Shown here in pieces: positions 46 to 4,978 of a DNA stretch of 5,479 nt. Origin of the DNA: Candidatus Endomicrobiellum dinenymphae. Lineage in GTDB: Bacteria > Elusimicrobiota > Endomicrobiia > Endomicrobiales > Endomicrobiaceae. Below the pieces are notes generated by a model that had not been told where the DNA came from, searched no databases, and saw only the letters and a program-made list of their open reading frames with translations. The stretch is from the NCBI GenBank assembly GCA_020328135.1, contig JAIXNA010000076.1, positions 1 through 5,479 on the forward strand, written 5' to 3'. The position numbers and the translations under genes were made by a program. Numbering within the stretch: the stretch's first letter is position 1; the number at the start of each line of letters is the position of its first letter.

Positions 46-73
46 GCGCTTTTGTCAGACAAAACAAAAGCGC
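46..73 (-). repeat. Repeat hairpin, copy C (covariant stem)
   Basis: Read on the minus strand this is a perfect 10-bp stem, GCGCTTTTGT paired with ACAAAAGCGC, around the 8-base loop TTTGTCTG. The same loop and the CTTTTGT part of the stem occur in hairpins at 1498-1525 and 3750-3777, but those have GTAC at the stem base where this one has GCGC. TTGG flanks the 5' arm of all three copies, sharing its final G with the stem. The hairpin starts 4 bases after the aminotransferase stop codon. No U-run follows it on the minus strand, so it is not a classical intrinsic terminator, although it could still protect or end the aminotransferase mRNA. Confidence 0.85.
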
Positions 74-1265: not shown

Positions 1266-1430
1266 GGAACCCTCCGTGTATTGGTTGTAAAATCATTTAA
1301 AAAACACCGAAAAAATAATAAAACATTTACTCGAGTTTAAATCTTAGTTTATAGTTGTTACGCCGCCTTAGAGAACTAGTCGACTATCTCATTTTAGTTG
1401 TGAAGCGAAATCGCCTATAAATCTTATAAT
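1266..1430. other. Divergent spacer: diverged left part of intergenic element A
   Basis: No gene is visible between the aminotransferase and rplU. This left half shares scattered, colinear matches with the obgE-moxR spacer: an 11-base A/T stretch at 1310-1320 (3540-3550 there), AATCTT near 1340 (3569), and the 13-mer GTTACGCCGCCTT at 1357-1369 (3592-3604). Lengths between the matches differ by several bases, so any common origin is old. It also holds the perfect palindrome TAGTCGACTA at 1377-1386. GTGAAGCG occurs at 1400-1407 and again at 1463-1470; each copy is followed by four bases and CGC. Confidence 0.5.
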
Positions 1431-1525
1431 ATTTTTCGCAAGTTCTAAAATTGTCTAAAAATGTGAAGCGGATGCGCTCAAGCGTCAAGAATCTTTGGTA
1501 CTTTTGTTTTGTCTGATAAAAGTAC
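1431..1525 (+). repeat. Intergenic repeat, copy A (core)
   Basis: The 95-base core matches 3683-3777, which is also exactly 95 bases. The left block 1431-1461 matches 3683-3713 at 30 of 31 positions (T1454 versus C3706). The right block 1478-1525 matches 3731-3777 in 46 of 48 alignment columns, with one substitution (T1485/G3738) and one extra base near 1493. The 16-17 bases between the blocks are unrelated. The right block ends in a hairpin whose stem is GTACTTTTGT (1498-1507) with ATAAAAGTAC (1516-1525), including one G-T wobble, and whose loop is TTTGTCTG. No coding frame is shared, so the conserved unit looks like a structured DNA or RNA repeat. Confidence 0.9.
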
Positions 1526-1535
1526 GAGAACTCGT

Positions 1536-1564
1536 TTGACATATATTTTTAATTTTTGTAGATT
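1536..1564 (+). promoter_or_regulatory. Predicted sigma-70-type promoter of rplU-rpmA-obgE
   Basis: A consensus -35 box TTGACA (1536-1541) is followed 17 bases later by TAGATT (1559-1564), which matches four of six positions of the -10 consensus. The spacer is almost purely A/T. Transcription would start near 1571, giving a leader of only about 20 bases that contains the rplU ribosome binding site. That leaves no room for an L21 autoregulatory leader RNA. The -35 box lies 10 bases after repeat hairpin A. Confidence 0.6.
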
Positions 1565-1590: not shown

Positions 1591-1905
1591 ATGTATGCGA
1601 TTATTAAAACAGGCGGAAAGCAGTACATGATAGAAGAAGGCGCGAGTTTAGCGGTAGAAAAGCTTGACGAGGTAGAAGTTGGTCAAGAGGTTGTCCTTAG
1701 CGAAGTTCTCTTGCTTGTAGATGGCGACAATACAACTATTGGAAAGCCCGTAGTAGAAGGCGCTAGCGTAGTAGCAAAAGTTATTGCGCAAAAAAGAGCT
1801 CCTAAGGTTTTGGTATTTAAAAGAAAACCAAAAAAAGGGTACAAAAAGATGCAGGGACATCGTCAATACGTAACAGAGCTGAAAATTACAAAGATTAACG
1901 CTTAA
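1591..1905 (+). CDS. rplU: 50S ribosomal protein L21
   Basis: The 104-residue product begins [17 protein letters not shown], the hallmark N-terminus of bacterial L21. It ends with the family's basic C-terminal part (residues about 73-104, including [21 protein letters not shown]), which contacts 23S rRNA. L21 is a 50S subunit assembly protein. GGAGGAG at 1576-1582 lies 8 bases before the ATG. Another ATG at 1584, out of frame, opens only a seven-codon reading frame ending at 1607 and sits too close to the Shine-Dalgarno sequence to be a likely start. The gene is first in the conserved order rplU-rpmA-obgE, and 23 bases separate it from rpmA. Its length is normal. Confidence 0.97.
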
Positions 1906-3509: not shown

Positions 3510-3682
3510 ACGTTTATGATAAACATAGCGCCAAATCGTAAAAAATAATAGAATACCCGCTTGGCTTGAATCTTGGTAGTTTGCGGCTACGGTTACGCCG
3601 CCTTGGAACGTGAGATTATGAGCAAAATATTTTTTAGGATTCATAGTCAATTAGCTCTGTGGAGATGCGTCGCGCTGCTAAG
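3510..3682. other. obgE-moxR spacer: diverged left part of intergenic element B
   Basis: No gene or clear rho-independent terminator follows obgE. Directly after the stop is a small overlapping palindrome (TAAACGTTTA at 3507-3516, then ATAAAC), without a T-run. Further on, the stretch shares colinear short matches with 1310-1369, including GTTACGCCGCCTT at 3592-3604. In this copy GCGGC (3583-3587) can pair with GCCGC (3597-3601) across a 9-base loop. The left arm is not conserved in copy A. Confidence 0.5.
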
Positions 3683-3777
3683 ATTTTTCGCAAGTTCTAA
3701 AATTGCCTAAAAAATAAGAAGGAAATATAGTCAAGCGGCAAGAATTTTGGTACTTTTGTTTTGTCTGATAAAAGTAC
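3683..3777 (+). repeat. Intergenic repeat, copy B (core)
   Basis: This is the counterpart of 1431-1525 and has the same 95-base length. It has a 31-base left block, a different 17-base middle, and a right block ending in hairpin 3750-3777. The hairpin is identical to copy A: stem GTACTTTTGT with ATAAAAGTAC, loop TTTGTCTG. As in copy A, a -35 box follows closely (11 bases after the hairpin, versus 10). It lies in the same orientation, between obgE and moxR. Confidence 0.9.
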
Positions 3778-3788
3778 ATAAAAATATG

Positions 3789-3818
3789 TTGACGCGCGCA
3801 ATGTTCTTGTTGTATAAA
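3789..3818 (+). promoter_or_regulatory. Predicted sigma-70-type promoter of moxR
   Basis: TTGACG (3789-3794, five of six consensus bases) and TATAAA (3813-3818, five of six) are separated by 18 bases. The expected start point is near 3825, inside the hairpin at 3822-3840. The leader to the moxR ATG would be about 45 bases. The promoter gives moxR its own transcription apart from the obgE operon. Confidence 0.6.
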
Positions 3819-4857: not shown

Positions 4858-4978
4858 AGTATAAGTAAAATTTATAGTTGTTATTGCCACGACAAATATA
4901 TGCAAAGTGTTTTACGATGATGGGTAGTCCACGCGGGCGCCTAAACCAATACCTCGACAAACTTTGCCTTCCGCCCTT

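Follow-up and report, generated by a model that had tools for sequence, protein, structure and literature searches.

A lineage-specific repeat ending in a palindrome lies mostly just upstream of predicted promoters in two Endomicrobiellum symbionts and carries a constrained 22-nt core

A hairpin that occurs three times in a 5,479-nt contig of Candidatus Endomicrobiellum dinenymphae belongs to a repeat that is dispersed in two closely related termite-gut symbionts and is specific to their lineage. Its copies are mostly sited just upstream of predicted promoters, which a preliminary description of this DNA had missed, and its 22-nt core is constrained between the sister species while the base of its stem evolves as fast as the flanking DNA. 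On balance, we favor the explanation that a mobile repeat has been inserted in one direction at the upstream edges of promoters, and that its core is kept as a double-stranded DNA site and not as a folded RNA or a single-stranded hairpin.

RESULTS

Three hairpins in one contig

The window, meaning the whole 5,479-nt stretch analyzed here, is one complete contig of a 1.12-Mb genome (G000; 229 contigs, 90% complete). The sister genome (G020) is that of Candidatus Endomicrobiellum pyrsonymphae PV1, of the same genus; the two have 89–96% identity in the DNA downstream of orthologous copies. According to the available part of a genome paper, described endosymbionts of termite gut flagellates have been placed in Endomicrobiellum, including Cand. 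Endomicrobiellum dinenymphae (PMC11257099). The features of the window are:

46..73, minus strand: copy C hairpin, reading GCGCTTTTGT-TTTGTCTG-ACAAAAGCGC (stem GCGCTTTTGT/ACAAAAGCGC, loop TTTGTCTG)
49-70, minus strand: core of copy C, beginning 7 nt past the aminotransferase stop codon
78..1265, minus strand: aspartate-aminotransferase-like gene, divergent from rplU (model matches below the curated cut-offs of the models shown)
1294..1497, plus strand: longer repeat element ending in copy A, about 205 nt (match 1294-1498)
1498-1525, plus strand: copy A hairpin, GTACTTTTGT-TTTGTCTG-ATAAAAGTAC, with a GTAC/GTAC basal stem and one G-T pair, upstream of the rplU promoter
1536..1564, plus strand: predicted rplU promoter, TTGACA-N17-TAGATT, 13 nt past the 22-nt core of copy A
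1591..1905, plus strand: rplU (ribosomal protein L21)
3541..3749, plus strand: longer repeat element ending in copy B (matches 3541-3657 and 3679-3713)
3750-3777, plus strand: copy B hairpin, GTACTTTTGT-TTTGTCTG-ATAAAAGTAC, the same as copy A, upstream of a moxR-like gene
3789..3818, plus strand: likely promoter, TTGACG-N18-TATAAA, 14 nt past the core of copy B

The window further contains rpmA and obg and, by sequence reading, the moxR-like gene and the start of one more gene; neither the moxR-like gene nor the last partial gene had an NCBIfam match at E 1e-10. The preliminary description had read the three hairpins correctly, including their positions and spelling, the two double changes at the stem base and the G-T pair of copies A and B that is G-C in copy C. 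Its observation that copy C lacks the longer element also holds, as the 260 nt before copy C consist of the aminotransferase gene plus 7 nt, and the only upstream look-alike is the copy's own ortholog; copy C shows that the hairpin is able to stand without the element. Each of the three copies has an ortholog in the sister species, that of copy A being L064.

A dispersed family restricted to one lineage

The 22-nt core, CTTTTGTTTTGTCTGAYAAAAG, occurs in 20 places in G000 at up to 3 mismatches, including 6 exact ones, while its reversed control pattern occurs in 0; the dispersed family with a conserved loop, as first proposed, thus exceeds chance. A scan returning only the three copies of the window had been named as a result that would speak against the proposal, and the 20 places go well beyond it. 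One 4-mismatch place in G000 (L102, plus strand, inside a coding region) was removed as a chance match before the later counts. In G020, 25 fetched stretches contain 27 copies at up to 4 mismatches.

With a covariance model built from the 20 copies, 35 matches were obtained in G020, weak and both-strand ones included; among the 33 remaining genomes of the genus, 10 had 1–2 matches, and 24 genomes from outside the genus had none. Such a search had been proposed in order to count copies and stem covariation: the many copies were found, and covariation across the family was absent. Scanning GTDB contigs for the exact pattern gave 23 stretches, of which 9 come from Cand. Endomicrobiellum pyrsonymphae; the other 14, which by eye have neither the outer stem nor the element, look unrelated. 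The corresponding viral scan returned 1 stretch, probably the same DNA as a Moraxella record of the GTDB scan, given that both contigs have a length of 25,378. As judged by titles and abstract openings, the repeat was not found described in the literature; in the available part of the 2024 Endomicrobia genome paper, the word 'promoter' is absent and 'repeat' is used twice, both times on CRISPR detection (PMC11257099).

One variant form and one possible relative were observed. L041 (G000:C228:2682-2726, minus strand) has a shortened form, CGTACTTTTGTCTGACAAAAATACG, with a short loop and one TTTTG unit fewer; it is followed by a −10-like TACAAT and then by a gene that is nucleotidyltransferase-like by sequence reading. 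In G010 and G032, a diverged hairpin, GGTGTTTTTTTGTTTGATAAAAATAC, that ends beside TTTGACA lies after rplT, named by sequence reading (L046/L047). With a model score of 30–31 bits, it is possibly a distant relative of the repeat or a native terminator.

Copies are positioned at predicted promoters

Pairs of −35 and −10 hexamers were scored out of 12 downstream of the core in 46 of the 47 copies, with copy C left out at its contig end; these counts take orthologs separately, and all promoters are predictions. The best score averages 9.14 over the 46 copies, compared to 7.62 (sd 0.14) in 200 dinucleotide shuffles. A score of at least 9 is reached downstream of 32 of 46 copies, versus 8 of 47 upstream on the opposite strand and 5 of 46 further upstream on the same strand. 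For 23 of the 32 good promoters among the 46 scanned copies, the −35 hexamer starts 8–14 nt past the core, which is the near-constant distance expected of an upstream promoter element; the other 9 start at 2–36 nt. The scan finds no good promoter at 14 of 46 copies; it demands a T at the last −10 position, and copy B scored only 6 there. When orthologs are counted once (30 loci), the three six-base bins covering 24–41 nt contain 9, 14 and 9 −10-like hexamers, with 1.4 expected per bin, and such a hexamer is found at 30–44 nt in 21 of the 30 loci.

Of the 29 loci with a next gene, 25 have it in the same direction, and among the four exceptions the one upstream of rpsO is probably an ORF-calling error; the upstream gene runs in the same direction at 14 loci and in the opposite direction at 11, and is missing at 6. 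Genes behind copies include rplU, dnaN, guaB, aroE, ilvD and purD and, by sequence reading, rpoB, glmU and hrcA; one copy in G020 precedes a tRNA-Ala gene. A classical regulon is unlikely because these genes have no functional theme in common. Places with no evident promoter are copy C, L094/L061 (at the convergent 3′ end of queE), L073 and L077; the sister ortholog of copy C has a promoter score of 9.2 only at offset 32, and the −35 of the left-shortened nrdD copy is 36 nt away, a longer distance than at most copies. At L188, upstream of hrcA in G020, an inverted repeat (TTAGCACT...GAGTGCTAA), which we take to be CIRCE-like, is found directly 3′ of the predicted promoter, and a similar sequence is present in other genomes of the genus.

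The core is constrained between sister species

Across 16 aligned ortholog pairs (one of 17 was left out, being orthologous on the upstream side only), we counted 31 differences in 352 core positions (8.8%), 52 in 566 positions of the promoter region (9.2%) and 51 in 364 positions of the 25 nt that follow the promoter region (14%). The basal stem, taken as three positions on each side, differs at 26 of 95 positions (27%), the spacer at 22 of 93 (24%) and the 120 nt upstream at 346 of 1750 (20%). Accordingly, the core diverges about as much as the promoter region and about a third as much as the basal stem and spacer together (31/352 versus 48/188; p = 4e-7, all 16 pairs), and it changes more slowly than the upstream DNA in 13 of 16 pairs. 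The contrast with upstream DNA is weakened, to 24/264 versus 189/1341 (p = 0.03), without the four pairs that have the most divergent upstream sequence.

Copies were recognized by their core, which is a possible detection bias. This bias is limited, because 17 of the 18 readable sister loci have kept the hairpin; among the 20 copies in G000, the sister locus contains it in 17 cases (one matched on the upstream side only), has lost it in 1 (glmU) and is not comparable in 2. Three positions of the core, namely the first C, the C at position 17 and the last G, account for 13 of its 31 changes, while T positions 2–4 and A positions 18–19 are unchanged. These position-wise changes alone do not separate a DNA site from a hairpin.

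Filled and empty sites point to insertion

The hairpin had been proposed to be the mobile or selected unit, and comparison of orthologous sites, some filled and some empty, points to insertion. At rplU, where 37 of 41 genomes gave a match and 28 of 30 loci of the genus could be anchored, TTGACA is present at all 28 anchored loci and the core and hairpin only in G000 and G020. Upstream of hrcA, rpoB, glmU and an ABC-protein gene, a recognizable promoter is kept, by eye, in three or four of the genomes G032, G010, G004 and G033; in the same four genomes, 65 further upstream regions (15–18 genes each) contain no core at up to 5 mismatches. Five places in total are filled in the sister and not in G000, with hrcA left out of the comparison where the G000 contig is cut. 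Three are nfr, nrdD (a 90-nt insert where G000 has 14 nt) and guaB; at pal, G020 has a copy and G000 has different DNA upstream of the same promoter. At the fifth, purD, loss in G000 is likely because G020 is filled and a loop-shortened copy is present in G033, a more distant genome. Between tRNA-Asn and the guaB hairpin of G020 (L063, G020:C56), about 1 kb of extra DNA, the repeat included, is absent from G000, and a decayed-looking coding stretch lies directly left of the repeat.

The promoter-edge position may reflect either insertion targeting or selective survival. In particular, the repeat could be neutral and mobile and strongly prefer to insert at upstream promoter edges, for example into polymerase-exposed DNA, its core appearing conserved only because the copies are young or because the core served as the search key. 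The filled and empty sites and the clustered distance to the −35 fit this explanation, and of the four copies that G020 has and G000 lacks at nfr, nrdD, guaB and pal, two lie 9–10 nt from a −35. Nevertheless, in the same 16 pairs the basal stem and spacer have accumulated 48 changes in 188 positions against 31 in 352 for the core, and the core is kept at 17 of 18 readable orthologous places; a purely neutral repeat is the less probable reading.

Some of the empty promoters in G032 and G010 (rplU, rpoB) carry another repeat family instead. This family, seen for example at L272, L288, L107 and L227, ends in CTTTTTTCATGCGTTTGTCG, and its right end, too, is constant. Allowing up to 3 mismatches, it was found in 34 and 41 places in G010 and G032 and in 0–3 places in five further genomes (the reversed control gave 0 and 2 for G010 and G032 and up to 1 elsewhere). 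A good promoter (at least 9) lies downstream of 9 of 33 copies examined, which include a few from G020 and G004, 7 of the 9 having their −35 at 18–21 nt, compared to 3 of 33 on the opposite strand; its promoter association is weaker than that of the CTTTTGTTTTGTCTGAYAAAAG repeat. In the window, CACTTTGCATATATTTGTCGTGGCAAT (4868-4908, minus strand) is by eye like the end of this other family, and a nearby intergenic CCCCCCCCC run and CTCTCAAAGAAAGGGG look like further dispersed repeats.

A longer repeat ends in the palindrome

The repeat is up to about 280 nt long; its right end, the palindrome, is constant, and its left end varies. Upstream likeness among copies extends over 200 nt and more in some and over 40–150 nt in others, and is lacking in several, including copy C; for several copies this reach includes flanks common to the ortholog. 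The inserts in G020 measure 277 nt at nfr and 90 nt at nrdD. Queried without the hairpin, the longer element gave 15 matches in G000 and 17 in G020, whereas 5 further genomes of the genus gave none; of these 32 matches, 27 come from places with a hairpin. The remaining 5 are three overlapping ones on contig C221 of G000, one at the end of contig C147, and the G020 copy at glmU, from which the hairpin has been deleted.

By eye, the left end of the longest copies, approximately (T)CAAATCATTTAAA, is not complementary to the right end, hairpin-TACGAAGAA, so that terminal inverted repeats were not seen. No target duplication was visible by eye at the filled and empty pairs of nfr and nrdD, the only two clean pairs, in species that are about 4–11% diverged. 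The longer element itself contains smaller nested palindromes, such as TAGTCAATTAACTC...GAGCTAGTTGACTA, at window 3644-3657 and more fully in L068 upstream of its dnaN copy; together with like pieces in other intergenic DNA, they suggest several layers of repeats. At L088 and L070, whose hairpins have extended stems that are spelled differently, the hairpin may mark or adjoin a rearrangement breakpoint, because the upstream sides look orthologous while the downstream sides differ (PfpI-like by sequence reading in G000; tRNA-Ala in G020).

Stem pairing is not maintained across the family

The main idea of the preliminary description was selection on a folded structure, with compensatory changes as its sign; the hairpin would then be kept by its pairing, as a structured RNA or as a terminator or processing hairpin of upstream transcripts. 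Copy C fits this best. The copy has GCGC/GCGC in G000 and GTAC/GTAC in its sister ortholog, a true double change that is an exception in the family. It may be transcribed, because it lies 7 nt after a stop codon and the next called gene in the sister is convergent and 358 nt further on, a setting in which copy C is also atypical. The clearest compensated stem is therefore found in the copy where RNA pairing could matter, and copy C, a single copy, is the best remaining support for the RNA-folding view. Further, L088 folds with about 20 pairs and zero mismatches.

Across the family, however, the pairing evidence goes the other way. Among the 170 stem cells of 17 ortholog pairs, 9 have both sides changed, and 3 of these 9 are paired in both species, 2 of the 3 being those of copy C. 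The observed covariation score of the 20 copies is reached by 397 of 500 shuffles, which removes compensatory change as a family-wide sign of selection on the fold, and over 47 copies no stem pair is paired more often than its column composition predicts (all p at least 0.09). The preliminary description had held that stems varying without complementarity would count against a selected fold; a GCG left arm occurs in 8 copies, and the matching right arm is present only in copy C and mismatched in the other 7. All 10 pairs are intact, with G-T allowed, in only 16 of 47 copies, and 11 of 25 loci have a divergent upstream gene. The pair-preserving covariation of a structured RNA family was not seen over 20 or 47 copies. 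An intrinsic terminator, a G+C-rich stem with a T run behind it, was rejected: at least 5 T in the 8 nt past the stem are found in just 4 of 47 copies in the sense direction and 3 of 47 in the antisense direction. Taken for the whole family, the pairing explanation is mostly refuted and we regard it as improbable.

In Rfam, the hairpin matched no family (the best, mir-553, scored 25.8 bits versus a gathering score of 82), and 15 fetched loci gave nothing at the gathering score except two tRNAs; among 14 terminator-like sites in the window, none is one of the three hairpins. An inner palindrome, TTTTGTC-T-GACAAAA, was considered as the real dyad; 1 of its 8 pairs weakly co-varies (p = 0.013 and 0.019, uncorrected for the pairs tested), and it was not adopted.

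Searches for a Y1 transposase and a reverse transcriptase were negative

The preliminary description had suggested mobilization by a RAYT/IS200-type transposase, and the search for one does not bear this out: no Y1_Tnp was found in G000, G020, G033, G032 and G064, and G010 has one broken fragment, in genomes that are rated 90–99% complete and may thus lack a gene in the assembly. A REP/REPIN-type element moved by such a transposase that has since been lost would share with the present repeat the character of a small intergenic palindrome family, and REPtrons can be lost by deletion, according to the part of the source available (PMC3733652). The REP tags GTAG, CTAC, CGTC or GACG, however, occur within 12 nt of the stem foot in only 3 of 47 copies, and the repeat has varying left ends with a constant right end; together with the missing Y1_Tnp, this leaves the explanation unsupported and very unlikely.

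The same asymmetry of the ends, including the left-shortened 90-nt insert at nrdD in the sister, is the constant 3′ end with 5′ shortening that a repeat spread by target-primed reverse transcription is expected to have, here from a small RNA with the hairpin as its 3′ end. Against such retroelement-like spread, no RVT_1 protein was found in any of G000, G020, G033 and G032 (0 of 4), and the left shortening may be due to later deletion; we give this route a very small probability.

DISCUSSION

The favored explanation is an insertion followed by retention. A lineage-specific repeat, with the palindrome as its constant right end, would insert in one orientation at the upstream edge of a promoter, and its 22-nt core would then be retained as a putative double-stranded DNA site. 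The core could be bound by the alpha subunit of RNA polymerase, a nucleoid protein or a regulator, altering promoter activity; such binding would account for a core that persists in an otherwise decaying repeat. Three observations speak for a DNA site: the core is placed 5′ of the predicted start, upstream genes can be divergent, and the stem pairs do not covary across the family.

Small non-autonomous bacterial repeats are mostly known at gene 3′ ends or in intergenic DNA with no fixed place. A broader proposition, which we put forward tentatively and with considerable reserve, is that in reduced endosymbiont genomes the repeat targets, in a fixed orientation, the upstream edges of housekeeping promoters, and so delivers a ready-made 22-bp upstream site to some thirty unrelated genes in one lineage. 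With its mostly uniform orientation, its clustered distance from the −35 and a terminal core about as conserved as the promoter region, the family would provide a natural example of promoters rewired in parallel by a repeat in reduced genomes. The effects of single insertions are testable pairwise because related genomes keep the promoters without the repeat.

Comparison with known systems

Several known repeat systems share part of these characteristics. REP and REPIN sequences are defined by a GTAG or CGTC tetranucleotide at one stem foot, in the available part of the source (PMC3733652). The present family resembles those moved by RAYT in consisting of short intergenic imperfect palindromes, within one lineage, with a conserved loop and stem core; unlike them, it has no GTAG or CGTC tag and no Y1 transposase. 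The Correia elements of Neisseria have an inverted repeat, can create promoters at their ends and can influence the expression of their neighbors, according to the abstract (PMC2649163). Like these Correia repeat enclosed elements (CREE), the copies described here are small intergenic repeats beside genes; in contrast, the promoters here exist in relatives without the repeat, and the palindrome is found at one end only.

MITEs and Rickettsia palindromic elements are non-autonomous intergenic repeats that have undergone lineage-specific expansion without coding capacity. The present repeat shares both the lineage-specific expansion and the lack of coding capacity, and differs from them in having no terminal inverted repeats and a constant right end only. 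Finally, UP elements and the sites of class I activators are centered at a position resembling the one seen here. The core is likewise rich in A/T tracts, with its center roughly 58–60 nt upstream of the predicted start; unlike those sites, it is asymmetric and is delivered by a dispersed repeat.
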